Of a stretch of DNA of 64,000 bases, positions 39,244 to 55,331 are shown in pieces (within the stretch, counting starts at the first letter, position 1; each line of letters starts with the position of its first letter). The notes beneath the pieces are model-generated. The model was not told where the DNA came from and did not search any database. It saw only the letters and a list, made by a program, of their open reading frames with translations. A program made the position numbers and the translations under genes. The stretch lies in the IMG/VR virus record IMGVR_UViG_3300049719_000225, positions 34,116-98,115 of that record; one strand, given 5' to 3'. This DNA is from a virus.

Positions 39244-39336
39244 TGGCGGAGACGTGCAGGTTCGCACTGCGTCGGATTTCTCCGAATGCGGTTTAGCAAA
39301 CCGCCGGGACTCCTAATTGTCCTCCTTACTGTCTCC
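39244..39336 (-). tRNA. tRNA-Ser(GCT)
   Basis: Anticodon arm GCGGT-TTGCTAA-ACCGC, long variable arm, encoded CCA. The D-loop has AG in place of GG and the T-loop is TGCGAAC (G55). First of four consecutive serine tRNAs. Confidence 0.9.
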
Positions 39337-39343
39337 GTGAAAG

Positions 39344-39436
39344 TGGCGGTAGTGTACGGGTTCGCACCGTGTACGGTTTCCCGTAGTCGAGTTTTCGAGG
39401 CTCGCGGGGCTCCTGTTTGCCCTCCTTACTCCTACC
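39344..39436 (-). tRNA. tRNA-Ser(CGA)
   Basis: Loop CTCGAAA, long variable arm, CCA encoded; T-loop TGCGAAC (G55). The acceptor has two mismatches, so its activity is less certain. Confidence 0.75.
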
Positions 39437-39519
39437 ACAGATGGTAATGATCGGCGATCTTTTCGGCGATCTCATAACCCACACGCTACTGCTGAGGTTA
39501 TGATTTTGACTGCTCAAAG

Positions 39520-39613
39520 TGGCGGAAGCGTGCAGGTTCGCACTGCGTCGGCTTGCGCCGAATGCGGCTTTCCAGACCGCCGGGACTCCTAATTGTCCTC
39601 CTTACTGCTTCCG
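39520..39613 (-). tRNA. tRNA-Ser(GGA)
   Basis: GCGGT-CTGGAAA-GCCGC, long variable arm, CCA; nearly identical to the Ser(GCT) gene outside the anticodon arm, so a duplicate with a changed anticodon. D-loop AG, T-loop G55. Confidence 0.9.
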
Positions 39614-39618
39614 TGAAA

Positions 39619-39706
39619 TGGAGGAAGGAGTGGGATTCGCACCCACGGACGGTTGCCCGTCTCCAGTTTTCAAGGCTGGTGCAATAAGCTGCTCTGCCAC
39701 CCTTCC
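39619..39706 (-). tRNA. tRNA-Ser(TGA)
   Basis: Loop CTTGAAA, variable arm, acceptor GGAAGG(G)/CTCCTTCC-type pairing, CCA; T-loop TGCGAAT (G55). Confidence 0.88.
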
Positions 39707-39709
39707 AAA

Positions 39710-39785
39710 TGGTACCGGTGGCAGGAGTTTCGCCCGCAACCCTCTGTTCCGAAGACAGATGCTCTATACGTTGAGCTACACCGGT
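39710..39785 (-). tRNA. tRNA-Arg(TCG), copy 1
   Basis: Acceptor ACCGGTG/CACCGGT, TCTGT-CTTCGGA-ACAGA, CCA. The T-loop CGAAACT is divergent (G55, A56). Confidence 0.88.
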
Positions 39786-39954
39786 GTATGGGGTGCTAGT
39801 TATATGAAAATAGCACCCATGAAAACGAAAGAAAAGATCGCTGAACTTACGCTGTTAAACCCTACTTGGGGTTACAAGCTTGTTTCGCGAATAGCGAATG
39901 GAATGGTACCCCCACCGAGACCGGTCCATCGCTATCTATGGGTACTGGGCGAGA
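39786..39954. other. tRNA-array spacer with a partial tRNA-Thr copy
   Basis: 39921-39950 is identical over 30 nt to the 5' half of tRNA-Thr(TGT) at 41210-41239, a recent partial duplication. The rest is A/T-richer; an open frame beginning MKTKEKIAELTLLNPTWG is present but I do not call it. Confidence 0.6.
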
Positions 39955-40030
39955 TGGAGCTGGTCGTGGGACTTGCACCCACTGCCTGTAGTTTACGAAA
40001 CTACCGCTCTTCTATACGAGCTACACCAGC
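39955..40030 (-). tRNA. tRNA-Thr(CGT), copy 1
   Basis: Acceptor GCTGGTG pairs with GACCAGC apart from the inner pairs; GTAGT-TTCGTAA-ACTAC; CCA. D-loop GTATAGAA (A18 G19), T-loop TGCAAGT (G55). Confidence 0.92.
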
Positions 40031-40035
40031 AAAAG

Positions 40036-40108
40036 TGGTCCGCATGGAAGGAATTGCACCCCCACTAAACGCTCCGAAGGCGCTTGTGCTATCTGTTACA
40101 CCACACGG
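40036..40108 (-). tRNA. tRNA-Arg(TCG), copy 2
   Basis: Acceptor CCGTGTG/CATGCGG (two wobble pairs), AGCGC-CTTCGGA-GCGTT, CCA. D-loop AACAGATA, T-loop TGCAATT. Confidence 0.85.
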
Positions 40109-40115
40109 GCAAAAG

Positions 40116-40191
40116 TGGTCCCGGCGACAGGAGTTGCACCCGCATAGGGCCGCTTAGAAGACGGCTGCCTTTCTGTTCGAGCCACACCGGG
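40116..40191 (-). tRNA. tRNA-Arg(TCT)
   Basis: Acceptor CCCGGTG/CGCCGGG, GCCGT-CTTCTAA-GCGGC, CCA; D-loop contains CAG, T-loop TGCAACT (G55). Confidence 0.9.
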
Positions 40192-40314
40192 AAATTCGTA
40201 GGGACCTCCAACTGGCTAGGAAGGAGTTCGGTCGCCAACCATCCCAAAGGAGGTGTTCACCCCAGGGGGTTTCACCCCATACCCTGGATGTAAACAGTTT
40301 GGTAAGTTTCGGCC

Positions 40315-40527
40315 ATGGCCAAAAACATAGCCGTTGTGGAGATGCAGGGACGGTCGTTGGTCGTGTGTGGCGACGACATGGTCACCACCATCAACCCACA
40401 GTGGATACAGTCGATGATGAGAGACATGCTGGTGCAGGATGCTGATGAGAAACAGGAGCAGACTTACGGCACCAGTTCCTCATGTACGAGGACTGAGCTT
40501 CCCTACATCGTTGACAGCGGCACTTGA
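40315..40527 (+). CDS. Hypothetical protein, 70 aa, inside the tRNA array
   Basis: MAKNIAVVEMQGRSLVVCGD looks like genuine protein for the first ~45 residues; the last part runs antisense through the end of an HNH gene. Not recognised. The only long rightward frame in the array. Confidence 0.4.
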   Translation: MAKNIAVVEMQGRSLVVCGDDMVTTINPQWIQSMMRDMLVQDADEKQEQTYGTSSSCTRTELPYIVDSGT

Positions 40528-40924
40528 ACCGGAGGTAGGATCTCCGTGTGCCATGCTCCTGGGGCCTGTTTTGAAGTCTCACCCGTAAGTTTTCTCCGGT
40601 GACATGTTGTTTGAACTTTTCTATGTCAGAAAACCACAGGGGTTTGCCTACAGTTTTCTTTCTATGACAATTTGAGCATCTCACATCACACTTGGAAATT
40701 TCCTCAGAAATTTTGACCCAAGACACGGCGTTGCTTACCATTACGCTAACGTTGACCAACTTATCACACGGATTTTTATGGTCGAAATCTAACACCCGTA
40801 TATCCCGCTCACCGCAATCAACACAGGGGTGGGTTAACAGATGTTCTACGATACGAACCCTGTTGCTCAACCGATAGAGCTTCTGTAGAGCATAGATGTG
40901 TTTTCGCGATCTTCGTGACCTCAT
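40391..40924 (-). CDS. HNH homing endonuclease
   Basis: 177 aa from ATG 40924. HPCVDCGERDIRVLDFDHKN and CDVRCSNCHRKKT form the HNH with two C-x2-C pairs; the C-terminus carries an HGTRRSYLRFKCRCQRC module, the same small domain that is N-terminal in the 12960 enzyme. It starts 13 nt upstream of tRNA-Arg(GCG) on the array strand. Confidence 0.82.
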   Translation of the reverse strand: MRSRRSRKHIYALQKLYRLSNRVRIVEHLLTHPCVDCGERDIRVLDFDHKNPCDKLVNVSVMVSNAVSWVKISEEISKCDVRCSNCHRKKTVGKPLWFSDIEKFKQHVTGENLRVRLQNRPQEHGTRRSYLRFKCRCQRCREAQSSYMRNWCRKSAPVSHQHPAPACLSSSTVSTVG

Positions 40925-40936
40925 ACACCGTAAGAA

Positions 40937-41012
40937 TGGTACCTCCACTCAGATTCGCACTGGGATTTTTTCCTTCGCAGGGAAATGTCCTATCTGGTTG
41001 GACGATGGAGGT
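40937..41012 (-). tRNA. tRNA-Arg(GCG)
   Basis: Acceptor ACCTCCA/TGGAGGT, TTTCC-CTGCGAA-GGAAA, CCA; D-loop AACCAGATA, T-loop TGCGAAT. Confidence 0.9.
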
Positions 41013-41017
41013 ATAAG

Positions 41018-41093
41018 TGGGGCGATGTACGGGAATTGCACCCGCTTACCCGGCTTCACAGGCCAGTACACTACTGAATATGCTAACATCGCC
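41018..41093 (-). tRNA. tRNA-His(GTG)
   Basis: CTGGC-CTGTGAA-GCCGG with an 8-bp acceptor GGCGATGT/ACATCGCC including the G-1 expected for histidine; CCA. D-loop ATTCAGTA, T-loop TGCAATT. Confidence 0.92.
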
Positions 41094-41097
41094 ATAA

Positions 41098-41160
41098 GTG
41101 GCGGGATTGGCCGTTGTTTCGGCCCACGCTGCAGCGCCCGATTCCGAGTCGGAACCCCGT
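41098..41160 (-). pseudogene. tRNA remnant
   Basis: Acceptor CGGGGTT/AATCCCG and CCA pair, but only ~60 nt separate the ends and no 7-nt anticodon loop can be drawn. Confidence 0.45.
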
Positions 41161-41163
41161 AAG

Positions 41164-41239
41164 TGGAGCCCAGTGACGGATGTGCGCCGTCCATGTCCGG
41201 ATTACAAAGCCGGTCCATCGCTATCTATGGGTACTGGGC
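41164..41239 (-). tRNA. tRNA-Thr(TGT)
   Basis: Acceptor GCCCAGT/ACTGGGC, CCGGC-TTTGTAA-TCCGG, CCA; T-loop CGCACAT (G55). A 30-nt piece of its 5' half is duplicated at 39921. Confidence 0.9.
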
Positions 41240-41315
41240 AAAGTGTATCGTATGGAATACAGGGATACGGCACAGAATTACGACCGTCCGGTTTGGTATT
41301 GCATACGATGCAAGC

Positions 41316-41391
41316 TGGAGCTAGTGACTGGATTTGCACCAGCTGCCTGCGGTTTACGAAACCGCCGCTCTTCTAAACGAGCTACACTAGC
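41316..41391 (-). tRNA. tRNA-Thr(CGT), copy 2
   Basis: GCGGT-TTCGTAA-ACCGC, acceptor GCTAGTG/CACTAGC, CCA; D-loop GTTTAGAA, T-loop TGCAAAT. Closely related to copy 1. Confidence 0.9.
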
Positions 41392-41395
41392 AAAG

Positions 41396-41470
41396 TGGTC
41401 CTCACGGCAGGGGTTGCACCTACATCCAAGCGATTATGGGTCGCCTGCTCTACAATTAAGCTACGCGAGG
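41396..41470 (-). tRNA. tRNA-Met/Ile2(CAT), copy 1
   Basis: GGCGA-CCCATAA-TCGCT, acceptor CCTCGCG/CGTGAGG, CCA; D-loop AATTGTA (T18 G19), T-loop TGCAACC (G55). CAT could be elongator Met, initiator or lysidine-Ile. Confidence 0.88.
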
Positions 41471-41481
41471 AAATTAGATTG

Positions 41482-41526
41482 CGGACAGGGCCGGGCATTA
41501 CCCGAGGACCTGTCCGCTTTATTTTC
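41482..41526. terminator. Intrinsic terminator
   Basis: GCGGACAGG / CCTGTCCGC stem with an inner GGG/CCC and a T-rich run on the + side. Confidence 0.65.
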
Positions 41527-41530
41527 TAGG

Positions 41531-41605
41531 TTATTCCATGTAGTCGAGTGCCGCAATGAGCGACAACCCTGCCACACAGACGATACCGGTGATGAGGTCG
41601 ATCAT
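41531..41605 (-). CDS. Small membrane peptide, 24 aa
   Basis: MIDLITGIVCVAGLSLIAAL is a single hydrophobic helix; AAAGGA lies 6 nt before the ATG. A typical tiny phage membrane protein; function unknown. Confidence 0.5.
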   Translation of the reverse strand: MIDLITGIVCVAGLSLIAALDYME

Positions 41606-41676
41606 CGGTGTCCTTTCATGTTGTAGCCCGCACGCTAGGTTTGGGCTGTTGATCGTGCCAAGGGCAGGCACGAAGG

Positions 41677-41753
41677 TGGTGCCGAGGAAGGGTCTTGCAC
41701 CCTCACTGGCGCAGATTTTAAGTTTGCGGCCTCTTCTTTTGGGCTACCCCGGC
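41677..41753 (-). tRNA. tRNA-Leu(TAA), short variable arm
   Basis: Acceptor GCCGGGG/CCTCGGC, loop CTTAAAA, CCA. It lacks the long variable arm usual for Leu. T-loop TGCAAGA (G55). The upstream HNH gene ends inside its 5' half. Confidence 0.82.
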
Positions 41754-42296
41754 AAAAAACTGTAGCCACTCTGGGTCTTCCTTTGGAATCCATCCCTGAG
41801 CGAACATTTTTGTCATTGTTTTTGAAGTTCCTTGGGGAAGATCAAACAACTTCATCAACCGATATGATCCATTTTTCTTTCCAGTGCTAGCAGGACGCTG
41901 GTCAAAAACTTCTTGAGCTTTCCACCAATGGTTTTCTCCCACGTTAGGGTTGTCCCACGGACGTTTGAGGAGGCTCGGGTTGCACTTCCCGCGCATACGG
42001 TCTGAAAGATTCTTACGAAGCAAATCACCAAGGGGAGTATCGTACAAATCTTTGGCATTTTCAGCGGGAGTGCCCCAGTACAAATGGCGAGGATTGGAGC
42101 ACGCAGCATTATGGCAGGCGTGACAGCATTGTATTTTGCTTCTCTTTGGAACAGTCGTTTTCAGATAATGGGCGAGAAGCCCTCGGCATGAGACAGAGTT
42201 TGTGCCTATTTCTACACAAGACTCTTCCAAGTTCAGATGCCGCTGACGATCTTCTTTTATCTGAGTGATGTATTCCTCTATGGGACGATAGGTCAT
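41718..42296 (-). CDS. HNH homing endonuclease (HNH_3-like)
   Basis: 192 aa. VCCHACHNAACSNPRHLYWG-like motif (CCHACHNAACSNPRHLYWG) with TPAENAKD is typical of HNH_3-type phage enzymes, and a C-terminal repeat-like QGTSKTMTKMFAQGW region suggests DNA recognition. The last 12 codons lie inside tRNA-Leu(TAA). Confidence 0.85.
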   Translation of the reverse strand: MTYRPIEEYITQIKEDRQRHLNLEESCVEIGTNSVSCRGLLAHYLKTTVPKRSKIQCCHACHNAACSNPRHLYWGTPAENAKDLYDTPLGDLLRKNLSDRMRGKCNPSLLKRPWDNPNVGENHWWKAQEVFDQRPASTGKKNGSYRLMKLFDLPQGTSKTMTKMFAQGWIPKEDPEWLQFFAGVAQKKRPQT

Positions 42297-42452
42297 GGTC
42301 TAACTACCGTCTACTATTTTTGTTTACTAATGTCCAGAAAGCAAGGGTTGGGCATCCAGTGTCTGGCAGGTTGCAACCCACCTGTCTTTGATGGTGGGCT
42401 GTGCGTCCACCCGACTGCGCGTCCGCAGTCGTACTCCCCAACTACCTCAGAG
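42297..42452. other. Array spacer with degenerate tRNA-like sequence
   Basis: Contains GCAGGTTGCAACC-type T-arm-like pieces but no complete cloverleaf. Confidence 0.3.
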
Positions 42453-42548
42453 TGGTCTGCGCCCTCAGGCCTTCAGGTCGTTTCGCTTATCGCCGCCATA
42501 CCAGGCAGCGGGCTACTCCACTTATCCGGTGTTCCGTACAGGCGCAGA
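42453..42548 (-). pseudogene. Degenerate type II tRNA-like gene
   Basis: The acceptor TCTGCGCC/GGCGCAGA is perfect over 8 bp and CCA is present, but neither T-arm nor anticodon loop is regular. It lies 1 nt from tRNA-Leu(CAA). Confidence 0.45.
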
Positions 42549-42549
42549 G

Positions 42550-42635
42550 TGGTCGCCCAGGAGGGAATCGCACCCTCACGCCCGAAGGCACGCCGTTTTG
42601 AGTGGCGCATGTCTACTGTTCCAATCACTGGGCGA
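42550..42635 (-). tRNA. tRNA-Leu(CAA)
   Basis: Loop CTCAAAA, variable arm GCC-TTCG-GGC, acceptor CGCCCAG/CTGGGCG, CCA; T-loop TGCGATT. Confidence 0.9.
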
Positions 42636-42637
42636 AA

Positions 42638-42711
42638 TGGCGCCCGCGCGGAGAGTCGCACTCCGATTACAGCCTTGAGAGGGCCGTGAACTACTCTTAT
42701 TCGACGCGGGC
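42638..42711 (-). tRNA. tRNA-Glu(CTC)
   Basis: CGGCC-CTCTCAA-GGCTG, acceptor GCCCGCG/CGCGGGC, CCA; D-loop AATAAGAGTA, T-loop TGCGACT. Confidence 0.9.
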
Positions 42712-42715
42712 AAAT

Positions 42716-42793
42716 TGGTCCCGGGAACAGGATTCGCACCCGCACGCCTTTCGGCAGGAGATTTTCCCGCGTCTACTCTTCCACCACCCCGGG
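42716..42793 (-). tRNA. Leu-type tRNA with irregular anticodon loop
   Basis: Acceptor CCCGGGG/TCCCGGG, variable arm GCCGAAAGGC, CCA and T-loop TGCGAAT are good. The loop between GCGGG and CCTGC is AAAATCT, without U33, so the anticodon is unclear. Confidence 0.6.
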
Positions 42794-42824
42794 AAATCGT
42801 GCTGAGTTTGTGACAATACCAGAG

Positions 42825-43481
42825 CTAAATGGTCCGAAAATAATAGGCATCGGCACTGTTGTCCCAGCGGCACTCATACCCCATATCCTGCAGCACCTGC
42901 TTCAGGTCCTTCATTGAGGCCCCTCCAGAGTAGTGTCCAAAATCTGCAGTTTCATTGACCTCCAAGAAAATAATCCGGGGCCTCAGGGACCCGAGGCCCC
43001 TGAGCACGAAAACCTCAGCCCCCTGAACATCAATCTGGATGATGTCTATGGTGATGCCAGCGCGCCTGCAGAACTCATCCAGTCTCACACTGGGTACGTG
43101 GGTTGGGCTGTCGGTAAACCCTGCCGTTGTTCCGTGTTGGCCCAGCCGTTCAGCCCTCAGCTTTTCAGTCGATGGGAGAATTGAGCCGCTCGCCCTATTG
43201 GGGTCACTAGGAATGTTTGGCCAGAAATCCACCCCATTTTCATGGTCAGTGACAGCGGCCTGCACGAGTTCCACGCCTGTACCCTCCAGGAAAGTCCTGG
43301 AATATGCGTAGTTTACGGTGTCACACTCAAAGGTGATCACCCGTGCATCTGGATACCGTTTCTTGAGGCTGAGGGCCTCATCACCGTCGTAGGTGCCCAC
43401 CTCCACGATCACCCTTGGTGGAACGCCCAGGGCGTCGAACTCACTCAGTGCCAATTCAAATCCTGGGGAACAGAAGCTCAT
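42825..43481 (-). CDS. FkbM-family methyltransferase
   Basis: 218 aa. VIVEVGTYDGDEALSLKK (motif I), ITFECDTVNY, and IDIIQIDVQGAEVFVLRGLG (motif IV-like) are the FkbM SAM-dependent signature. FkbM enzymes O-methylate sugars and other small hydroxyl groups. With two glycosyltransferases in the window, capping of a phage-made or host surface glycan is plausible. A cargo gene within the tRNA array on the array strand. Confidence 0.88.
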   Translation of the reverse strand: MSFCSPGFELALSEFDALGVPPRVIVEVGTYDGDEALSLKKRYPDARVITFECDTVNYAYSRTFLEGTGVELVQAAVTDHENGVDFWPNIPSDPNRASGSILPSTEKLRAERLGQHGTTAGFTDSPTHVPSVRLDEFCRRAGITIDIIQIDVQGAEVFVLRGLGSLRPRIIFLEVNETADFGHYSGGASMKDLKQVLQDMGYECRWDNSADAYYFRTI

Positions 43482-43652
43482 ATGCCTAACTAGAATAGTT
43501 CCGCCTCAGGTCGCTCAGCAGACATCCACGCTTCCTGTCGCACTTACCTGCCGGGTAATTACTCCCAGATGCCAAGGTGCGATTATGTGAGCTGGCACAT
43601 CAAAGCTTCTACTCACGACGGTCGTGGTACTCTACTGCCCTCAGTGACGGAT
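43482..43652. other. Spacer, nothing assigned
   Basis: No complete gene or cloverleaf seen between the methyltransferase and the minihelix tRNA remnant. Confidence 0.3.
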
Positions 43653-43700
43653 TGGTCGGCATGAGGGGAATCGCACCCCTCTTACGGAACACGCATGCCG
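43653..43700 (-). pseudogene. tRNA minihelix (acceptor + T-arm only)
   Basis: Acceptor CGGCATG/CATGCCG and T-arm AGGGG-TGCGATT-CCCCT with CCA are perfect, but D- and anticodon arms are replaced by 13 nt. Total 48 nt: a deletion product or a stable minihelix RNA. Confidence 0.6.
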
Positions 43701-43705
43701 GTGAT

Positions 43706-43790
43706 TGGTGCCCTAGGGGAGAGTCGCACTCCCAAGGCTCACTCCTTCTAAGGGAGGCCGCTCTTCTATTCGCGGTGAACCACACGGGCA
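43706..43790 (-). tRNA. tRNA-Leu(TAG)
   Basis: Loop CTTAGAA, CCA; T-loop TGCGACT. The acceptor has two mismatches. The upstream HNH gene ends within its 5' end. Confidence 0.78.
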
Positions 43791-44542: not shown

Positions 44543-44572
44543 GATAGTAACTAGCGTACTTACTAGAACGAT

Positions 44573-44657
44573 TGGTCCCGACGAGAGGACTCGCACCTCC
44601 AAGGTATTTCTACCGCTACGTTCTGAGCGTAGTTCGTTTACATTTCGACACGCCGGG
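44573..44657 (-). tRNA. tRNA-Leu(CAG)
   Basis: CTACG-CTCAGAA-CGTAG, variable arm GGTAGAAATACC, acceptor CCCGGCG/CGTCGGG, CCA; T-loop TGCGAGT. Confidence 0.9.
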
Positions 44658-44714
44658 AAAGTTTACTGGAACGCTATGTTTTACTGCTCAGTAAAACTAT
44701 GTTTTGGTGTAGAA

Positions 44715-44799
44715 TGGTGCGGATGACAGGCTTCGCTCCTGCACGGTGTTACCCCAACGCTTCTCAGGCGCTGCTGTCTACTAATTTCAGCACATCCGC
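44715..44799 (-). tRNA. tRNA-Leu(GAG)
   Basis: AGCGC-CTGAGAA-GCGTT, long variable arm, acceptor GCGGATG/CATCCGC, CCA; D-loop has TAG, T-loop AGCGAAG. Confidence 0.9.
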
Positions 44800-45105: not shown

Positions 45106-45151
45106 GATGGATTGCATTGCTCAGCGTAACGCTGCATGGCGAAGACCGAAA

Positions 45152-45783: not shown

Positions 45784-45857
45784 TGGAGGTCCCATCCAGA
45801 GTTGCACTGGACCAACCCGAATACCAATCGGGAGCTACGCTAGCTTAGCTTTGGGAC
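45784..45857 (-). tRNA. tRNA-Thr(GGT)
   Basis: Acceptor GGTCCCA/TGGGACC, CCCGA-TTGGTAT-TCGGG, CCA; T-loop TGCAACT (G55). The upstream HNH gene ends 23 nt inside it. Confidence 0.9.
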
Positions 45858-46374
45858 CATATCGGTAAGTACGCACGCTAATGTTTCTTCTGCCAAAATT
45901 TTTAGTGAGGGAGTGGCAGTTTGGGCACAAAACCTTAAGGTTTTCCGGTCTGCTATTTGCTGCATTTCCATCTTCATGGTGAACTTGGACTGGTATGTTT
46001 TTGGTGAACTCGTTGACCATGTTCCACCCGCATTTCTCACACTTATTACCCGCCCTCTCCAGCACCCAATCCCTAACGGGGTCCTTTAGATCAAAATTAC
46101 CCGTATCATAGTGACCCTGTATCTCTCCCTTTAGCCACCCCTCTACGAGAGAGCGGGACTTCTTTTTTCGCTGGAGAGAAATGATTTCAGGAAAACTCAG
46201 AAAGTGGTCGGTGCTTACTCCCCTTTCAAGACACACTTTTCTAATTAAATTAATAATGGACTGGCATTTAGTCTTATAGCCGAGATTACTGACGGCCTCG
46301 GATATGTGGGTGCTACCCGAAATGATAGCCTGAAGTTCCTCTAGGGGCATCTTGTACAATTTAGATATTATCAT
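45835..46374 (-). CDS. HNH homing endonuclease
   Basis: 179 aa. The N-terminal wHTH-like KMPLEELQAIISGSTHISEAV...GVSTDHFL, then HNH with KCEKCGW, VQVHHEDGNAANSRPENLKVLC and PNCHS. The final 8 codons lie in tRNA-Thr(GGT). Confidence 0.88.
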   Translation of the reverse strand: MIISKLYKMPLEELQAIISGSTHISEAVSNLGYKTKCQSIINLIRKVCLERGVSTDHFLSFPEIISLQRKKKSRSLVEGWLKGEIQGHYDTGNFDLKDPVRDWVLERAGNKCEKCGWNMVNEFTKNIPVQVHHEDGNAANSRPENLKVLCPNCHSLTKNFGRRNISVRTYRYGPKAKLA

Positions 46375-46490: not shown

Positions 46491-46495
46491 ACAAC

Positions 46496-46571
46496 TGGTG
46501 GACCCGGTGGGCTTTGCTCCCACGACCTACTGATTAAGAGTCAGCTGCTCTGCTGGCTGAGCTACGAGTCC
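46496..46571 (-). tRNA. tRNA-Lys(CTT)
   Basis: GCTGA-CTCTTAA-TCAGT, acceptor GGACTCG/CGGGTCC, CCA; D-loop AGCCAGCA, T-loop AGCAAAG. Confidence 0.92.
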
Positions 46572-46618: not shown

Positions 46619-46693
46619 TGGTACCCCAGACAGGATTCGCACCTGCAACCTTCTCCTTAGGACGGAGTTGCTCTATCTTTTGAGCTACTAGGG
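46619..46693 (-). tRNA. tRNA-Arg(CCT)
   Basis: Loop GTCCTAA, acceptor ACCCTAG/CTGGGGT, CCA; D-loop AAAAGATA, T-loop TGCGAAT. Confidence 0.88.
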
Positions 46694-46753
46694 TATAATT
46701 GTTTTGCCGTTTTACGGCGGTGGCAGTTGGTGCACCTAACTACAGACAGTATG

Positions 46754-46829
46754 TGGTGCCCCCGCACGGACTCGCACCGTGATCTCAGCCTTCGGAGGGC
46801 CGTATTCGATCTAGTTGAAATACGTGGGC
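46754..46829 (-). tRNA. tRNA-Arg(CCG)
   Basis: CGGCC-CTCCGAA-GGCTG, CCA; D-loop AACTAGATC, T-loop TGCGAGT. One acceptor mismatch. Confidence 0.88.
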
Positions 46830-46837: not shown

Positions 46838-46913
46838 TGGTGGGCTCACGGGGATTCGCACCCCGAGTCGTCGGTTTAAAAGACCGCTGCTTTGACTGTT
46901 TAGCTATGAGCCC
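46838..46913 (-). tRNA. tRNA-Lys(TTT)
   Basis: GCGGT-CTTTTAA-ACCGA, acceptor GGGCTCA/TGAGCCC, CCA; D-loop AACAGTCA, T-loop TGCGAAT. Confidence 0.92.
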
Positions 46914-47417: not shown

Positions 47418-47491
47418 TGGCTGCGGAGGCTGGATTCGCACCAGCACTAGACGGGTCAAAGCCGCCGGGCCTACTATTAACCTACTCCGCA
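47418..47491 (-). tRNA. tRNA-Gln(TTG)
   Basis: GGCGG-CTTTGAC-CCGTC, acceptor TGCGGAG/CTCCGCA, CCA; D-loop AATAGTA, T-loop TGCGAAT. Confidence 0.9.
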
Positions 47492-47497: not shown

Positions 47498-47575
47498 TGG
47501 TCAGGGTGACAGGACTTGCACCTGCATAATTTCCGTTCCGAGCGGAATCGCCGACTATTTGGCACCACACCCTGA
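47498..47575 (-). tRNA. tRNA-Pro(CGG)
   Basis: TTCCG-CTCGGAA-CGGAA, acceptor CAGGGTG/CACCCTG, CCA; T-loop TGCAAGT. Confidence 0.9.
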
Positions 47576-49555: not shown

Positions 49556-49578
49556 GTACGGATAGAACAGATACCAAA

Positions 49579-49656
49579 TGGTCGGAATGGCGGGCTTTGC
49601 TCCCGCGACCTCACGGCCCCCAGCCGTGCGCTCTACTGAACTAAGCTACATTCCGA
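49579..49656 (-). tRNA. tRNA-Pro(GGG)
   Basis: CACGG-CTGGGGG-CCGTG, acceptor CGGAATG/CATTCCG, CCA; D-loop AGTTCAGTA, T-loop AGCAAAG. Confidence 0.9.
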
Positions 49657-49932: not shown

Positions 49933-50009
49933 TGGTCGTCACGAAGGGACTCGCACCCCTGATCCTCTCCATGTCGAGGAGATGCCTTAGCTGCTGGGCT
50001 ACGTGACGA
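49933..50009 (-). tRNA. tRNA-Val(GAC)
   Basis: TCTCC-TCGACAT-GGAGA (C33), acceptor CGTCACG/CGTGACG, CCA; D-loop AGCAGCTA, T-loop TGCGAGT. Confidence 0.85.
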
Positions 50010-50071
50010 AATGGTTACGAAAAGCGCGGCGTGTTACCCTGGGCGGCTGTGAGCCGATCTTAACGCTGAAA

Positions 50072-50145
50072 TGGCTCCCAGGGAAGGATTCGCACCTCCA
50101 CGAAACGGGTCAGGGCCGTTGATGCTACTGTTACATTACCTGGGA
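50072..50145 (-). tRNA. tRNA-Gln(CTG)
   Basis: AACGG-CCCTGAC-CCGTT (C33), acceptor TCCCAGG/CCTGGGA, CCA; D-loop AACAGTA, T-loop TGCGAAT. Confidence 0.88.
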
Positions 50146-50721
50146 ATAAAGTCGCCCTGCCAGACAGGATGCTCCTGCACTTCCCGGGAGCGCTCTCCGG
50201 GATGTTCTTGGTGTTTGAACTACTGGCAAGATGGCTGCTAGGGAGGGACTCGCACCTTCATAATCCCGATTAACAGTCGGGGGCTCTACTATTGAGCTAC
50301 CTAGCAATGAAAGTTTTGAGTGTTCCTCTGCGTGACAGTTGGCGCATATAAGATCACATTTTCTAGCCTCTTCCCGAACGGCTTTCTGAGACACCCATTT
50401 TCTCAAGCCCGTTACGCCAATGTTTATTTTACGACCGTCACGTTTAACCAAGCACCTATTCCCTATCGGTTTTCTATGGTGAAAGTGAAGAGCATCTAAG
50501 CATCTTGAGTACCCACATCGCTTACATTTACCTCCGTGCTCTATTTTCAGAGTTGTTAAAAACTTCCTTCTATTTTCCCGTCGTTTCGACTTTGCGTACT
50601 CACGATACTCGTTTGTAGCATGCCAAGCTACTGTGCTTTTGGTGAGACCCGTGATGGAGCAAATTTCCCTGCGGCTTTTGCCCTCTTTTAAGAACTGTTC
50701 CACTAATTCTCTAGTGCCCAT
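50131..50721 (-). CDS. HNH homing endonuclease reading through tRNA-Asn
   Basis: 196 aa. The N-terminal HTH (SRREICSITGLTKSTVAWHA), then HNH with KCKRCGYSRCLDALHFHHRKP and CDLICANCHAEEH. The frame remains open across the whole tRNA-Asn gene and stops inside tRNA-Gln(CTG), so the last ~60 residues are tRNA-derived. Confidence 0.85.
   Translation of the reverse strand: MGTRELVEQFLKEGKSRREICSITGLTKSTVAWHATNEYREYAKSKRRENRRKFLTTLKIEHGGKCKRCGYSRCLDALHFHHRKPIGNRCLVKRDGRKINIGVTGLRKWVSQKAVREEARKCDLICANCHAEEHSKLSLLGSSIVEPPTVNRDYEGASPSLAAILPVVQTPRTSRRALPGSAGASCLAGRLYSQVM
50232..50306 (-). tRNA. tRNA-Asn(GTT)
   Basis: CCCGA-CTGTTAA-TCGGG, acceptor TGCTAGG/CCTAGCA, CCA; D-loop AATAGTA, T-loop TGCGAGT. 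Confidence 0.92.
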
Positions 50722-50767
50722 GACTTAACTAAGAATGGTCATTTTTATGTCCCGCTCTCCAGGTGAA

Positions 50768-50842
50768 TGGTGGTTCGTGAGGGACTCGCACCCCCGTAGG
50801 TTGCATGTGACGCAACTATCCTAGCTGCTAGATGAACGAACC
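50768..50842 (-). tRNA. tRNA-Val(CAC)
   Basis: GTTGC-GTCACAT-GCAAC, acceptor GGTTCGT/ACGAACC, CCA; D-loop contains CTAG, T-loop TGCGAGT. Confidence 0.9.
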
Positions 50843-50848
50843 GGATAA

Positions 50849-50928
50849 TGGTGCACTGGGAGGGACTCGCACCCCCGATCATTGCCTGCGTGTAAAACAG
50901 GTGCCCTGGCTGCTAGGCTGACCAATGC
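50849..50928 (-). tRNA. tRNA-Val(TAC)
   Basis: CCTGT-TTTACAC-GCAGG, acceptor GCATTGG/CCAGTGC, CCA; T-loop TGCGAGT. Confidence 0.9.
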
Positions 50929-50982
50929 AAAGTTTTACCCAGACGGGGGCCTTCAGCGACAGGCGGCAGCCCCACCTTCGTG

Positions 50983-51138
50983 TTACTCCCTTTCGTCAGC
51001 ACCCTGTGATGCCGGGGTCCTCATCAGCCCGCGACTTGCGGCCCGAGCCTTCCACCACCTCATCTCGCGGATCAGCCACGTCTTATTTGGCGGCAGTGGT
51101 CTGGCAGACTGACTTCCTGCTCTTAAGATGCGCTTCAT
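50983..51138 (-). CDS. Small basic protein, 51 aa
   Basis: MKRILRAGSQSARPLPPNKT is preceded by AGGAG at 5-6 nt. Rich in Arg/Trp. Not recognised; it may bind nucleic acid. It lies between tRNA-Asp and tRNA-Val. Confidence 0.5.
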   Translation of the reverse strand: MKRILRAGSQSARPLPPNKTWLIREMRWWKARAASRGLMRTPASQGADERE

Positions 51139-51155
51139 ACGCACTCCTGGGTAAA

Positions 51156-51232
51156 TGGCGGGCACGACCGGACTTGCACCGGCTGACACTGGATTGACAA
51201 TCCAGGGATTCGACTCCTTCATCTCCGTACCC
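51156..51232 (-). tRNA. tRNA-Asp(GTC)
   Basis: CTGGA-TTGTCAA-TCCAG, acceptor GGGTACG/CGTGCCC, CCA; T-loop TGCAAGT. Confidence 0.9.
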
Positions 51233-51241
51233 ATAAAGGCT

Positions 51242-51363
51242 GGGAGGAGAGTGGACTGTTCACCACCCGTCCTTTCGAGCCGCCAACCGTGCCCGGATCC
51301 CAGGCCGTGCCAGCGGTGAGTCAAACAACTCGATTGCTCTGTACATCTCTGAGCTATCCTCCC
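51242..51363 (-). tRNA. tRNA-like gene with ~45-nt extra hairpin in the variable region
   Basis: Acceptor GGGAGGA/TCCTCCC and D-arm GCTC/GAGC are exact, and a T-stem GTGG/CCAC is present. Between anticodon stem GAGT/ACTC and T-arm is a long hairpin closed by CCGC/GCGG. CCA is replaced by GCC. It contains GGGATCCGGG, similar to the insert in the next gene. Confidence 0.55.
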
Positions 51364-51368
51364 GTAAA

Positions 51369-51512
51369 TGGTGCAAGGTGATGGAGTCGAACCACCGGCG
51401 TGCAGTTTGTGTATGAAGTATCCCGCGTCTACGCTACTGGTTTCCCGCCACGGTTTCCCGGGATCAGGCGACTCAGGTATGTGTTACTGTGCTACCGTTA
51501 CACTAAACTCGC
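51369..51512 (-). tRNA. tRNA-like gene with ~75-nt insertion
   Basis: 5' GCGAGTT TA GTGT-AACGGTA-GCAC and 3' GGTGG-TTCGACT-CCATC with CCA form canonical ends (acceptor 6/7). The anticodon region holds ~75 extra nt including GATCCCGGGAAACC. Canonical GG and TTC, unlike its neighbours. Confidence 0.55.
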
Positions 51513-51515
51513 AAA

Positions 51516-51593
51516 TGGTCCGAGTGAAGGGATTCGCACCCCCGATCTCCTGCTCCCAAAGCAGGCGCGTTACTAGGCTTCGCTACACTCGGA
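51516..51593 (-). tRNA. tRNA-Pro(TGG)
   Basis: CCTGC-TTTGGGA-GCAGG, acceptor CCGAGTG/CACTCGG, CCA; T-loop TGCGAAT. Confidence 0.92.
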
Positions 51594-51652
51594 AAGGGAC
51601 GGGGTTTATGAGTCCTGGAACCCCCACAGGGCGGTATGTCTCCGCTTGCTCG

Positions 51653-51714
51653 CACCAACGGGAGTCGAACCCGCCCCTTCTCATAGGAGGTATGCAGTCC
51701 GCCACACTCTGATG
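51653..51714 (-). pseudogene. tRNA-like remnant with canonical T-loop
   Basis: T-arm CGGG-TTCGACT-CCCG with a weak acceptor CATCAG/TTGGTG and no CCA. The anticodon arm is irregular. Confidence 0.4.
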
Positions 51715-51927
51715 TCTGCAACAGGTGATTTCGCTGACGAAATGGTGCGTTCTTTCCCGCCGTCACAGTGCGCCACAAGGCTTCACAGGCCCCCTGCGCA
51801 TATCGTGTTTTCGTACACGTCTGGGCTTTGGAGGCCCAGAACGTCAGATTTATCTTCTGACATACCAGTGTTTTGTTGGACGAGGCCCCCATAAAATGGT
51901 GTGCCAGCAAACTCTGGCACTAAATGG

Positions 51928-51998
51928 AGGGGGCCGCAGGATTTTCACCTGCATTCGCGCCTTAGAAGGGCGCAGTCCTATGTGGTCATAGATGTTCA
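51928..51998 (-). tRNA. tRNA-Arg(TCT)-like, acceptor mismatched
   Basis: TGCGCC-CTTCTAA-GGCGCG and T-arm GCAGG-TGAAAAT-CCTGC with CCA are good, but the 5' acceptor strand does not match 3' GGCCCCC. The complement GGGGGCC lies just downstream (51885-51895). Confidence 0.5.
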
Positions 51999-52001
51999 AA
52001 A

Positions 52002-52079
52002 TGGTGGACACGGCAGGCTTCGCTCCTGCGACACGCGGCTCTTCAGACCGCTGTTCTACTGGGCTGAACTACGAGTCCA
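52002..52079 (-). tRNA. tRNA-Phe(GAA)
   Basis: GCGGT-CTGAAGA-GCCGC, acceptor GGACTCG with one mismatch, CCA; D-loop AGCCCAGTA, T-loop AGCGAAG. Confidence 0.9.
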
Positions 52080-52080
52080 T

Positions 52081-52163
52081 TCTCGGGGAACAAGCGGCAA
52101 CGGGTACGCCCTTGCGGGCGATCTTGTTGTTGGAATAAGAAGTATCCGTCACCTAACGCCACC
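52081..52163 (-). ncRNA. Repeated structured element, copy B
   Basis: Starts GTGGCGTTAGGTGACGG then ATACTTCT, identical to copy C for 17 nt, and ends CCGCTTGTTCCC like copy A (CCGTTTGTTCCC). It contains an extra GCCC-GCAA-GGGC hairpin. Confidence 0.45.
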
Positions 52164-52167
52164 GAAA

Positions 52168-52242
52168 TGGGTGCAGAGACCGGACTCGCACCGGCGACCT
52201 TGTGGTTATGAGCCACACGAGCTGCTACTGCTCCACTCTGCA
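52168..52242 (-). tRNA. tRNA-Met(CAT), copy 3
   Basis: TGTGG-CTCATAA-CCACA, acceptor TGCAGAG/CTCTGCA, CCA; D-arm GAGC-AGTAGCA-GCTC (A18), T-loop TGCGAGT. Confidence 0.9.
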
Positions 52243-52384
52243 AAGTGACAGGAAACCAAACGCCGGGGTGCGCTACATCCCCGAACCTCCGCGTGTTTTG
52301 CAGCCGCGTCCTCTGCGTCTATGAGATAGCCGCTCAGTTTCCCTATTGACGTTGGATGTGCAAGACACCACGTAGTCACTAAAA
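52243..52384. other. Array spacer with tRNA-Cys-like fragment
   Basis: A CTGCAAA loop-like segment and GAGGTTCGGG are visible but no acceptor; treated as degenerate. Confidence 0.3.
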
Positions 52385-52460
52385 TGGCACGGACGGCAGG
52401 TATTGCGCCTGCATGGAACGGTTTTGGAGACCGTCGCCTTACTTGTCGAGCCACGTCCGT
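52385..52460 (-). tRNA. tRNA-Trp(CCA)
   Basis: ACGGT-CTCCAAA-ACCGT, acceptor ACGGACG/CGTCCGT, CCA end; D-loop ACAAGTA, T-loop CGCAATA (G55). Confidence 0.92.
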
Positions 52461-52470
52461 ATGAGAAGGC

Positions 52471-52538
52471 TCTGGAGGCAGGAGTCTCACCTGCGGTCTC
52501 ACCGTGCGCACAGATCGGCCTAGTTCGTCCACCCCAGA
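52471..52538 (-). pseudogene. tRNA-like, no CCA, irregular anticodon arm
   Basis: Acceptor TCTGGGG/CTCCAGA and T-arm GCAGG-TGAGACT-CCTGC are fine; the anticodon stem cannot be closed regularly and GCC replaces the CCA end. Confidence 0.5.
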
Positions 52539-52539
52539 A

Positions 52540-52615
52540 TGGTCCTCCAGTCCGGTACTGCCCCGGCGTCAAAGCCTTATCGAGACTCCGCTCTACTATT
52601 TGAGCTACAGGAGGA
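52540..52615 (-). tRNA. tRNA-Ile(GAT)
   Basis: GAGTC-TCGATAA-GGCTT (C33), CCA; D-loop AAATAGTA, T-loop GGCAGTA (G55). Confidence 0.85.
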
Positions 52616-52689
52616 AATTGTCATGGAGAGAGGCCTCCCTCATGTGATTATTTTGGCACGGACTCCCACCGTTTGTGATACCTCGAAGA

Positions 52690-52778
52690 TGGTCCAGGCG
52701 ACAGGACTCGCACCTGTGAAGCCCGTTAGGGCGGTTGATTTACAGTCAACTGGCATAGCTGCTCGCACCACACCTGGA
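52690..52778 (-). tRNA. tRNA-Tyr(GTA)
   Basis: GTTGA-CTGTAAA-TCAAC, long variable arm, acceptor CCAGGTG/CGCCTGG, CCA; D-loop AGCAGCTA, T-loop TGCGAGT. Confidence 0.92.
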
Positions 52779-52780
52779 AA

Positions 52781-52851
52781 TGGGTGTAGGCGAGGTACGT
52801 GACCACCTCTACGTCAGGTTATGATCCTACACGAGCACTTGCATACCTACA
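52781..52851 (-). tRNA. tRNA-Met/Ile2(CAT), copy 4
   Basis: Loop ATCATAA, acceptor TGTAGGT/GCCTACA, T-stem GAGGT/ACCTC with an 8-nt loop GGTCACGT, CCA. Less regular than the other CAT tRNAs. Confidence 0.65.
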
Positions 52852-52969
52852 AAGACTCTCCGCTGTAATGCTCACCCAACTGTTTGCCCGCACTCGGCCT
52901 ATGGCCTGCTTTAGGGGTTGGGAGTGACTACGCCTGCACTACACTTTCGTCTGGCGAAGGAACGGAGAA

Positions 52970-53044
52970 TGGAGCCCCAGCGGGGTAATGCTCCCCGTAC
53001 TCAAGTTTGGAAAACTCACATGTATCTATCAACACTTCTGAGGC
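52970..53044 (-). tRNA. tRNA-Gly(TCC)
   Basis: TGAGT-TTTCCAA-ACTTG, acceptor GCCTCAG/CTGGGGC, CCA; T-loop AGCATTA (G55). Confidence 0.85.
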
Positions 53045-53050
53045 AAATTG

Positions 53051-53077
53051 AGCGGGGCACAGGTTGCCCTGTGCCCC
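53051..53077. terminator. Strong hairpin, probable terminator
   Basis: GGGGCACAGG / CCTGTGCCCC, 10 bp with a 3-nt loop, inside the array. It may terminate or serve as an RNA processing stop. Confidence 0.5.
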
Positions 53078-53251
53078 TATCCAGGGTGTGAAAATATGCG
53101 GTTGGGTCCAACGAGCTAGGCTCTCCCCTTGACCTTGCGGTATGCGCACACTCACATGCCGGTGATTTCTCACCGGGAAATTATGCCGCACCCTACACTG
53201 TAAGGGGTGTTGGGCATAACGCCATGACCCCTCCATTTCAGTAGCGGCAGA
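53078..53251. other. Array spacer, nothing assigned
   Basis: Contains a small CCGGTGA/TCACCGG hairpin near 53158; no cloverleaf or supported gene. Confidence 0.3.
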
Positions 53252-53327
53252 TGGTGGAGATGATGGGAGTCGCACCCACGGCCTATTCAATGCCATTGAA
53301 TCGCTCTGCTAACTGAGCTACATCCCC
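53252..53327 (-). tRNA. tRNA-Ala(GGC)
   Basis: ATTCA-ATGGCAT-TGAAT, acceptor GGGGATG/CATCTCC, CCA; D-loop AGTTAGCA, T-loop TGCGACT. Confidence 0.92.
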
Positions 53328-53403
53328 GAAAATGCAGAGGGCGCTGGTTGGGCGTCCTCGTTGCTCCTTCCACACTTACCCGTTGGTGGATGAGTCAAAT
53401 TGG

Positions 53404-53560
53404 TGGACCTGGCGGGAGTCGCGCCCGCGTTCTCAAACCTCTTCTCAGCGTCGTCTACAAGCTTGTTCACCGTTTTGGTTTTCGTTCCCGGGATCGGCCA
53501 GTGACGGCTTACCCCGGGACTTATCTCACGCAGTCAGCCGTGTCGTCGTGAGCCAACGAG
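53404..53560 (-). pseudogene. tRNA-like 3' half with possible insertion
   Basis: CCA, acceptor strand CAGGTCC and T-arm GCGGG-CGCGACT-CCCGC are present; no matching 5' half is found nearby. Upstream sequence contains GATCCCGGGAA, as in the insert at 51369. Confidence 0.4.
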
Positions 53561-53623
53561 CACTGCAGCATCATTGAATAGATGGTTGATGCTGACCACC
53601 TCAGCTAGCCGTGGATCGTGTGA

Positions 53624-53797
53624 TCAGGCGAACTGAACTGCCTCCACGTCAACGTAACCAGAGGCGGCGAGAAACTCGTCGGCCTCGGCCACGGAGGGCG
53701 CGAAGTCAGGGCTTGCGATGTTATCGTTAGCACTTGTGTTTTGGCCCCTTTTGAAAGGAGGGATCAATCCTTGCTTGCAGGCGCTGCGAATCAGCAT
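53624..53797 (-). CDS. Small protein, 57 aa
   Basis: MLIRSACKQGLIPPFKRGQN, then an acidic end (DFAPSVAEADEFLAASGYVD). The frame extends upstream into a hydrophobic run (WATLWACTSILL) lacking a start, so a longer membrane form is possible. A hairpin CAGACCGG/CCGGTCTG (53829-53850) lies upstream. Confidence 0.4.
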   Translation of the reverse strand: MLIRSACKQGLIPPFKRGQNTSANDNIASPDFAPSVAEADEFLAASGYVDVEAVQFA

Positions 53798-53828
53798 GAG
53801 TAGAATGCTGGTACAGGCCCAAAGAGTA

Positions 53829-53850
53829 GCCCAGACCGGGTTGGCCGGTC
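53829..53850. terminator. Hairpin CAGACCGG / CCGGTCTG
   Basis: A perfect short inverted repeat between array genes; possible terminator or processing site. Confidence 0.4.
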
Positions 53851-54004
53851 TGGGCAGCGATACATGCTAACGGCTAAGACTTTTCAGGTGAAATTGGTTG
53901 GCCCATCCTTCCCCCGTGACGCTTTAGTCCCGACACACTCTTCGTGCATCTGTCACAGGTTTTCGGCAGGGCTCACCTTTGTACTATTGAGCATTGGTGT
54001 AAAC

Positions 54005-54080
54005 TGGTGGAGACGACGGGGGTTGCACCCGTTACCCCCTCGTTGCGAACGAGGCGCTCTGCTAGTTGAGCTACATCCCC
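54005..54080 (-). tRNA. tRNA-Ala(CGC)
   Basis: CCTCG-TTCGCAA-CGAGG, acceptor GGGGATG/CGTCTCC, CCA; D-loop AACTAGCA, T-loop TGCAACC. Confidence 0.92.
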
Positions 54081-54084
54081 GAGG

Positions 54085-54155
54085 TGGAGCAGCAGGATGG
54101 ACTTGAACCACCGTCTATGGGTTACCCCAAAGTTCTTTCTCTGAACTACTGCTGC
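54085..54155 (-). tRNA. Non-decoding tRNA-like RNA with GTAA tetraloop
   Basis: Acceptor GCAGCAG/CTGCTGC, D-arm GTTC/GAAC, T-arm GGTGG-TTCAAGT-CCATC and CCA are intact. In place of the anticodon loop is TGGG-GTAA-CCCA, a GNRA-type tetraloop. It has canonical T55, unlike both neighbours. Confidence 0.65.
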
Positions 54156-54158
54156 AAA

Positions 54159-54234
54159 TGGTGGACCTAGCGGGCTTTGCTCCCGCCACCCCCTGCTTGC
54201 AAAGCAGGTGCTCTTCTGAATGAGCTACAGGCCC
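54159..54234 (-). tRNA. tRNA-Ala(TGC)
   Basis: CCTGC-TTTGCAA-GCAGG, CCA; D-loop ATTCAGAA, T-loop AGCAAAG. A clear A18/G55 example. Confidence 0.92.
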
Positions 54235-54239
54235 GAGAG

Positions 54240-54313
54240 TGGAAGCGCGTACCCGTAATGCTCGGGTTTAAGCCGGGTTGCAACCGGATGGATCACTTTT
54301 CTCCCAACGCGCT
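54240..54313 (-). tRNA. tRNA-Cys(GCA)
   Basis: Acceptor AGCGCGT/ACGCGCT, loop TTGCAAC on CCGG/CCGG, CCA; T-loop AGCATTA (G55). The upstream endonuclease gene ends 21 nt inside it. Confidence 0.85.
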
Positions 54314-54961
54314 ACAAATTTGTGAAAGCTGCCCAGCATAAAACTCAAACAACCCAGATCGTGCCCCTTTCAACGCCAGAGCACATGTACCGAAGGGGAT
54401 TTTACGTTTTGTCTTTTTAGAGGAGGACTTGCTTCTGAACCGATAGATGCGAATCTTTTCTTTCTCTATCCCGCACCATTTCCAGTAATCGCGTACATCA
54501 TCATCGGTGACAGTATCCTCTGGATGTATATGTATGGCTGCGATAAAATTTTCAGCCCCGTGCCCAAACCTGCCAGCCCACAGTATCATTTCCCTTACGG
54601 CTACTCGATCTGAATTTGAAAACCCCCACGAACGCCTATACTTGGCCCCTTCTCCCCAGTAAAGTCCTGCGCATAAGGCATCTCTCAGAGACAGTTTTGA
54701 TTCTAGGCCTAGCTTAAACTGAGTTTCTCTAAGTTGGGTGTAGTGTTTCTGGCGGGTCTGTTGCGCAGTTCGTATGTTTTTGACCATCATTGCATGCCTG
54801 TCCTTGGTCACGAATCCTTTTGGCCACGAATACCCAAATTTGTTGACCCAACAGATGATCGTTCTCTTTGGAACGCCCATAACGAGGGCAATTTGATCGG
54901 CAGAATGACCCTTCTCTCGTAGAACCTTAAACTGCTCAATTACTTCTTTTGAATGCGCCAT
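54293..54961 (-). CDS. Homing endonuclease, LAGLIDADG-superfamily-like with HTH
   Basis: 222 aa. N-terminal HTH (GHSADQIALVMGVPKRTIICW). The core DALCAGLYWGEGAKYRRS, then FSNSDRVAVREMILW and later IRIYRF, follows the single-chain LAGLIDADG-like pattern (G-x-Y-x-G-E-G; F-x-N-S-D). Its 3' end enters tRNA-Cys. Confidence 0.75.
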   Translation of the reverse strand: MAHSKEVIEQFKVLREKGHSADQIALVMGVPKRTIICWVNKFGYSWPKGFVTKDRHAMMVKNIRTAQQTRQKHYTQLRETQFKLGLESKLSLRDALCAGLYWGEGAKYRRSWGFSNSDRVAVREMILWAGRFGHGAENFIAAIHIHPEDTVTDDDVRDYWKWCGIEKEKIRIYRFRSKSSSKKTKRKIPFGTCALALKGARSGLFEFYAGQLSQICSALGEK

Positions 54962-55175
54962 AGTTAACTAACTACTATGGATCAGTGCGAAATGGTGCAC
55001 GGCCTTACTACTTGGCTAAACGTCCGAAAGTTTTCAGCGGCTTACTAGGCTTGGTTATTGCAAGGCAGGTATCTCTAGGCGCTAGACCCCGCTCGTGCTC
55101 TCCTACGCGAGTCCCGCAACGTTTCAGGATACTCGTACGACTGGAGCGCAACCCATCTTGCGACAGGCACTGAAA
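54962..55175. other. Array spacer, degenerate tRNA pieces
   Basis: A TGG-GTGCACGG piece (~54994) could be a tRNA 3' end without T-arm. A GTG-initiated 31-codon frame ending near 55078 is possible but unsupported. Confidence 0.3.
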
Positions 55176-55250
55176 TGGTGCGAGCGAAGTGATTCGCACA
55201 CTCGTGGTTCACCTTGGCAAGGTGATGCCTGACTTCTAGGCTACGCTCGC
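55176..55250 (-). tRNA. tRNA-Gly(GCC)
   Basis: TCACC-TTGCCAA-GGTGA, acceptor GCGAGCG/CGCTCGC, CCA; D-loop AGAAGTCA, T-loop TGCGAAT. Confidence 0.92.
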
Positions 55251-55256
55251 ATGAAA

Positions 55257-55331
55257 TGGAGGCCCCAACGGGATTCCCACCCGTGTAAACGCCGTGAAAG
55301 GGCGGTGTCCTGAGTCCTAGACGATGAGGCC
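55257..55331 (-). tRNA. tRNA-Glu(TTC)
   Basis: CGCC-CTTTCAC-GGCG, acceptor GGCCTCA/TGGGGCC, CCA; T-loop TGGGAAT (G55, G56). First gene of the leftward array. Confidence 0.9.

Follow-up and report, generated by a model that had tools for sequence, protein, structure and literature searches.

Swapped A18/G55 elbows in the tRNA array of an uncultured T4-like phage and its relatives

The tRNA array and its elbows

The DNA analysed here (the window; 64,000 nucleotides (nt), positions 34,116 to 98,115 of IMG/VR record IMGVR_UViG_3300049719_000225) belongs to a 98 kb record from an uncultured T4-like phage. Its minus strand carries, at 39.6-55.3 kb, an array of 44 well-formed transfer RNA (tRNA) genes, whose isotypes cover 20/20 amino acids, together with a transfer-messenger RNA (tmRNA). 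The elbow contact between G18 of the D-loop and pseudouridine-55 (Psi55) of the T-loop is treated as near-universal in tRNA. In the DNA sequence, from which all results reported here derive, G55 is present in 44/44 array tRNAs and U55 in 0/44, and A18 in 42/44; U18 stands in the two exceptions, tRNA-Met/Ile2 CAU (41396-41470) and tRNA-Leu CAG (44573-44657). The original prediction had described this A18/G55 swap as nearly array-wide, and the counts bear it out. It had also held that G19 and C56 are retained, which is true of nearly all genes (C56 in 42/44) and fails in two, tRNA-Arg UCG (39710-39785; U19-A56) and tRNA-Glu UUC (55257-55331; C19-G56), in which the 19-56 pair is itself exchanged and remains Watson-Crick.

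Thirty-three of the array tRNAs, including both U18 genes and tRNA-Glu UUC, were called by ARAGORN. Those with A18/G55 and no further change listed are tRNA-Ser UGA (39619-39706), tRNA-Thr CGU (39955-40030 and 41316-41391) and GGU (45784-45858), tRNA-Arg UCG (40036-40110), UCU (40116-40191), GCG (40937-41012), CCU (46619-46694) and CCG (46754-46829), tRNA-His GUG (41018-41092, with G-1 and C73), tRNA-Leu UAA (41677-41753), tRNA-Glu CUC (42638-42711), tRNA-Lys UUU (46838-46913), tRNA-Gln UUG (47418-47491), tRNA-Val GAC (49933-50008), CAC (50768-50842) and UAC (50849-50928), tRNA-Asn GUU (50232-50306), tRNA-Pro UGG (51516-51592), tRNA-Met CAU (52168-52242), tRNA-Tyr GUA (52690-52777), tRNA-Ala GGC (53252-53327) and CGC (54005-54080) and tRNA-Gly GCC (55176-55250). 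Residue 54 is also changed, to A54 in tRNA-Leu GAG (44715-44799), tRNA-Lys CUU (46496-46571), tRNA-Pro GGG (49579-49655), tRNA-Phe GAA (52002-52078) and tRNA-Ala UGC (54159-54234), and to C54 in tRNA-Trp CCA (52385-52460).

Five more A18/G55 genes came from an elbow-agnostic cloverleaf scan, which required stems, U33 and CCA, left residues 18, 19 and 54-58 free and gave 0 matches in shuffled DNA: tRNA-Arg UCG with U19-A56, tRNA-Thr UGU (41164-41239; C54), tRNA-Asp GUC (51156-51232), and tRNA-Gly UCC (52970-53044) and tRNA-Cys GCA (54240-54313), both with A54-U58. A covariance model trained on 24 array tRNAs added six, also A18/G55, namely two tRNAs with a long variable arm (42550-42634 and 43706-43789), one with a variable arm (42716-42793), a tRNA-like gene of approximate boundaries (47500-47572), a probable tRNA-Gln CUG (50072-50145) and tRNA-Ile GAU (52540-52614; G54-G58). 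ARAGORN thus left 11/44 array genes uncalled; finders tuned to TTC overlook tRNA genes with such elbows.

The array tRNAs form cloverleaves with stems of 7/4/5/5 base pairs (bp), a 7-nt anticodon loop and a 7-nt T-loop, and they carry identity features and an encoded CCA. Position 2 of the T-loop was located from the 3' end through the 7-bp acceptor stem, the 5-bp T-stem and the 7-nt loop, and all 33 ARAGORN-called genes have G there. Pair 53-61 is G-C in 207/210 tRNAs of the family, that is, of this phage and its relatives (contigs whose capsid proteins are 58-67% identical, given G numbers below). Since the T-stems are correctly placed, the stems pair well and the covariation described below is strong, both misplaced T-stems and decay are excluded as the source of G55, the latter as had been claimed. 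TruB acts on the consensus 53-GUUYRANYC-61 (PMC7912444), which none of the 44 array tRNAs matches; because G55 replaces U55, they cannot be TruB substrates.

The tmRNA (53401-53820, minus strand) bears the same swap, a point absent from the original prediction, with AG in the D-loop (CAGCA where the family reads GG) and the T-loop CGCGACT, and is recognized over its full length by the Rfam covariance model RF00023 (70.6 bits, positions 1-374). Its tag, read by eye, is seemingly unusually long, at about 35 residues with an ANDN start and a QFA end.

Outside the array, a lone tRNA on the plus strand (31204-31280; ARAGORN and T-loop count) has the canonical G18G19/U55C56 and is an internal control for the swapped array. 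It has an 8-nt anticodon loop reading TTCTAAA and is possibly an amber (CUA) suppressor, to judge by that loop. CUA tRNAs also lie outside the arrays of relatives G001, G008, G010 and G022, all with canonical elbows. A 71-nt tRNA-like element within the array (54085-54155, minus strand) keeps a TTC T-loop and an encoded CCA, has the D-loop AGAGAAA, and shows a GUAA loop of 4 nt where an anticodon loop would be expected; G001 holds a relative of this element with the same D-loop.

Covariation and spread of remodelled elbows

The elbows are remodelled in all array-bearing relatives, whose capsid proteins are 60-66% similar (G001, G004, G007, G008, G010/G011, G020/G022 and G025). A18/G55 predominates in G001, G004, G007, G008, G020 and G022. 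U55 is kept in G010 and G011, which show A54, often with U58, together with C19-G56 or U19-A56 swaps, and G025 has mixed elbow types. Across the family the compensated forms comprise G55, A54-U58, and C19-G56, U19-A56 or A19-U56, and different solutions coexist within single arrays. Exchange of 19-56 is strongly enriched in arginine tRNAs (17/32 vs 16/225 others), G007, G008, G010 and G025 being the relatives concerned. The A18/G55 phages are spread over the deep branches of a capsid tree, with G010/G011 nested inside. The distant phage G040, with a capsid protein 25-28% identical, has G55 in 33/34 tRNAs, nearly all of them without encoded CCA.

The dependence between the loops was expressed as a rule predicting G18 from U55, A18 from G55, and at position 19 the Watson-Crick partner of residue 56. 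The predicted D-loop dinucleotide is present in 197/209 tRNAs from eight phages of the family; T-loops shuffled within each phage gave 139 +/- 4 fits, with a maximum of 151 over 2000 shuffles. Pair 19-56 is G-C in most tRNAs and takes other Watson-Crick forms where changed, 27/31 tRNAs with an altered C56 having the predicted partner. At 54-58 the 209 tRNAs have T-A (145), A-T (23), A-A (21), C-A (11) and G-G (5), and the commonest T-loops read TGCRA, which conforms to a UGNRA loop with 54-58 pairing.

A18 and G55 also co-occur in pattern scans of a viral collection. The scans used a fixed D-arm, TAGCTCA...AGAGC, to which other tRNAs are invisible, and a spacer that was either normal (24-27 nt) or long (28-40 nt), the latter excluding standard tRNAs and favouring odd anticodon arms. 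The rows were not de-replicated, and p-values are to be taken loosely. With the long spacer and stems checked, AG/TGC occurred 25 times, GG/TGC 0, AG/TTC 4 and GG/TTC at least 71 times. With the normal spacer, AG/TGC was found in at least 120 contigs, and 77/85 matches were verified among the first 80 loci. GG/TGC was found in 17 contigs, with 15 matches verified; ten of these read AGG, so that they may also be A18, and five are true GG. The viral contigs are metagenomic, and many independent ones are concordant. Family and viral scans together strongly support the claim of the original prediction that both elbow partners changed together.

What nearly all family arrays have in common is the loss of the T-loop sequence TTCRA. 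It is intact in 22/275 (about 8%) tRNAs of eight array phages (G000, the phage of the window, and G001, G004, G007, G008, G010, G022 and G040) and in 143/167 (about 86%) of nine other large phage arrays, chosen for carrying one swapped tRNA (Fisher 4e-65, with rows that are not independent). That TTCRA is lost by multiple compensated routes suggests selection against a recognition event, and not for one particular alternative.

A serious rival is near-neutral drift, in which A18-G55 would be an equally good structure and phage tRNAs, needed only for a short time, would be freed from the modification needs imposed by TruB, TrmA and TrmH, so that double changes build up in the absence of positive selection. 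Sporadic single A18/G55 tRNAs in at least 120 viral contigs and one cultured phage are what drift would yield; other elbow positions likewise vary with compensation, and a few DPANN archaeal tRNAs share the pair. However, conversion of 44/44 tRNAs plus the tmRNA would be hard to reach by drift when about 86% of the T-loops in other large arrays are canonical, and a canonical tRNA survives outside the array in the same genome. We regard drift as rather unlikely. The sporadic A18/G55 elements were also considered as YrlA-type Y RNAs, a candidate that was rejected, as their Rfam matches are only to tRNA.

In cells the A18/G55 pair is possible but rare among the genomes tested. The normal-spacer pattern was found in 0/399 Pseudomonadota genomes, whereas the canonical G18/U55 pattern was found in 60/60 sampled, at about 10 per genome. 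A long-spacer scan of 84,980 genomes returned 15 A18/G55 loci. Roughly half are DPANN archaeal tRNAs, seemingly intron-bearing. These DPANN loci (L268, L269, L271-L273, L276, L277 and L281, from Micrarchaeota, Woesearchaeota and Marsarchaeota) are threonine- or alanine-type tRNA genes. A host that itself uses A18/G55, from which the phage copied its tRNAs, would accord with the DPANN cases. The Pseudomonadota counts speak against such copying, as does the occurrence of canonical tRNAs and tmRNAs in the same phage genomes, and it is very improbable.

The cultured Brevundimonas phage vB_BpoS-Kikimora (ON529857.1) has an A18/G55 tRNA-Met at 154048-154124, reading GCGCAGTCCAGTAGCGC / TGCGAAT. A TROVE protein is encoded in its vicinity. 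As this phage is in culture, the question can be approached at the bench. No prior report of the swap in phages was found in the open-access literature searched, which covered altered elbows, tRNAs of phages and related motifs.

Neighbouring genes and encoded machinery

Two minus-strand genes lie at the edge of the array. The first (36895-38478) encodes a Ro60-like protein with TROVE and vWA domains (Pfam TROVE 8.4e-17, 61.9 bits against a curated cut-off of 23; PDB 9l5y/9kop 1.1e-16), and the second (38531-39211) an HNH-type protein that adjoins the arrays in all relatives checked. Ro60 occurs in nearly all array-bearing relatives, and array-less relatives, some of whose records are fragments, are without it except G014. 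The two genes form a conserved pair next to large phage tRNA arrays. The HNH gene of G040 is apparently split by an intein. The HNH gene was dropped as a marker of A18/G55 phages only, since G010/G011 have it too.

This arrangement bears on the proposal that the phage, or its Ro60 and HNH neighbours, destroys or sequesters host tRNAs and that the swapped elbow spares its own set. Encoding all isotypes and a tmRNA would suit such a scheme, as would the presence of the Ro60-like and HNH genes beside nearly all arrays and the absence of Ro60 without an array except in G014. Yang et al. in 2021 reportedly described host tRNA degradation with replacement by phage tRNAs. On the other side, G010/G011 own both neighbour genes yet keep U55, canonical suppressor-type tRNAs are retained in several of these genomes, and the HNH protein is without a known RNA target. 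In this form the proposal is distinctly improbable.

The original prediction had also raised matching to phage-altered ribosomes. Contacts of the elbow with the L1 stalk, helix 38 and L5 (PMC4810234) would give an altered ribosome or translation factor something to act on. However, among 201 open reading frames (ORFs) scanned in relative G007 no ribosomal protein, EF-Tu or other elongation factor, tRNA synthetase or TruB was found (10 boundary ORFs lay outside the scan, and one list gave the best 25 of 28 families), and the tRNAs must therefore use host machinery. Differing elbow solutions within one array, and the coexistence of canonical and swapped tRNAs, also count against tuning to a phage-altered ribosome, which we consider highly unlikely.

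Elsewhere in the window lie genes for a head protease (20604-22397), the major capsid protein (22443-23930) and a tape measure (57135-59669). A BLAST comparison with cultured phages found no near relative, the capsid protein being less than 30% identical to its best cultured-phage matches. A large ORF on the plus strand (17768-19672) has a LAGLIDADG-like domain, and small helix-turn-helix-type ORFs (50131-50721 and 54293-54961) sit between array tRNAs; their sequences suggest mobile endonuclease genes.

Interpretation and comparison with known systems

Judged by gene sequence, the near-universal G18-Psi55 pair is replaced, with compensation, in whole phage tRNA sets. In a normal elbow residue 18 inserts between 57 and 58 and touches Psi55 (PMC4810234), and in UGNRA T-loops of other RNAs the loop G commonly meets an A from outside, forming a composite GNRA-like fold (PMC2258182). 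The change from G18-U55 to A18-G55 turns U55-C56-R57-A58 into G55-C56-R57-A58, the UGNRA form, and in three dimensions A18 would contact the loop G. The L-shape would thereby be kept and, in most genes, so would the exposed 19-56 pair, which the ribosome and RNase P need. The TTCRA sequence is destroyed, and the fold would be preserved.

The reading that we tentatively favour, as possible though somewhat short of probable, is that these changes are a compensated escape from a factor recognizing tRNAs by their T-loop sequence, within a self-sufficient tRNA set. The array would act as a full replacement set for 20 amino acids, with its tmRNA, and its tRNAs would serve in translation and escape a T-loop- or elbow-reading factor acting on ordinary tRNAs during infection. 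Candidates for this factor are a tRNA-cleaving defence and a modification-linked step of decay or control. Escape from an elbow-reading nuclease or enzyme had been proposed in the original prediction, and it fits best because relatives break TTCRA in several compensated ways.

Several observations weigh against this escape. Some family tRNAs keep canonical elbows, and among nine phages checked only G000 and G007 have a swapped tmRNA, that of the other 7/9 being canonical; the persistence of such canonical RNAs implies that any pressure is not absolute. In many other phages a single swapped tRNA stands among canonical ones, which fits drift equally. No elbow-reading defence nuclease was identified, the known examples considered here acting on the anticodon region or the CCA tail.

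A bolder version, which we consider unlikely, treats the elbow as a mark of self and non-self: ordinary tRNAs would be destroyed or sidelined by a T-loop reader, and the recoded set would sustain translation. The reader could be phage-encoded, with possible involvement of the neighbouring HNH or Ro60 protein, or could belong to a suicide defence of the host. If this were true, A18-G55 would be a second elbow code in natural use.

The arrays use all Watson-Crick forms of 19-56 and so provide a survey of elbow mutations made in nature. They make it possible to test which cellular factors need G18/Psi55, and they point to an unrecognized selective pressure that acts on phage tRNAs away from the anticodon.

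In comparison with the canonical bacterial elbow (G18-Psi55, G19-C56, U54-A58), the array tRNAs share the cloverleaf, T-loop length, G53-C61, R57, in most cases A58, and also the 15-48 pair, CCA and isotype signatures such as His G-1/C73. They differ in having A18-G55 array-wide, in exchanges of 19-56 and 54-58 in some genes, and in the absence of the TruB site. The UGNRA motif, or type R1 lonepair triloop, of the TPP riboswitch and other RNAs is fitted exactly by U54-G55-C56-R57-A58 with A18; here, unlike in those RNAs (PMC2258182), it would form the elbow throughout a set of tRNAs, and covariation suggests the contact. The tmRNA resembles phage tmRNAs (RF00023) in its full length, Ala-type acceptor and tag reading frame, whereas its D/T elbow is swapped only in the window phage and its relative G007. 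Bacterial Ro60, which is accompanied by Y RNA and by genes for RNA repair, is likewise a TROVE and vWA protein; here it is array-adjacent, no Y RNA family match was found, and its tie to the tRNAs is positional only. Finally, phage tRNAs evade tRNA-cleaving defences through changes near the anticodon stem-loop (PMC10264068, PMC12409363). The arrays resemble these in combining altered, probably still functional phage tRNA sequences with large or complete sets, but here it is the elbow that is changed, and the change is common to all isotypes.

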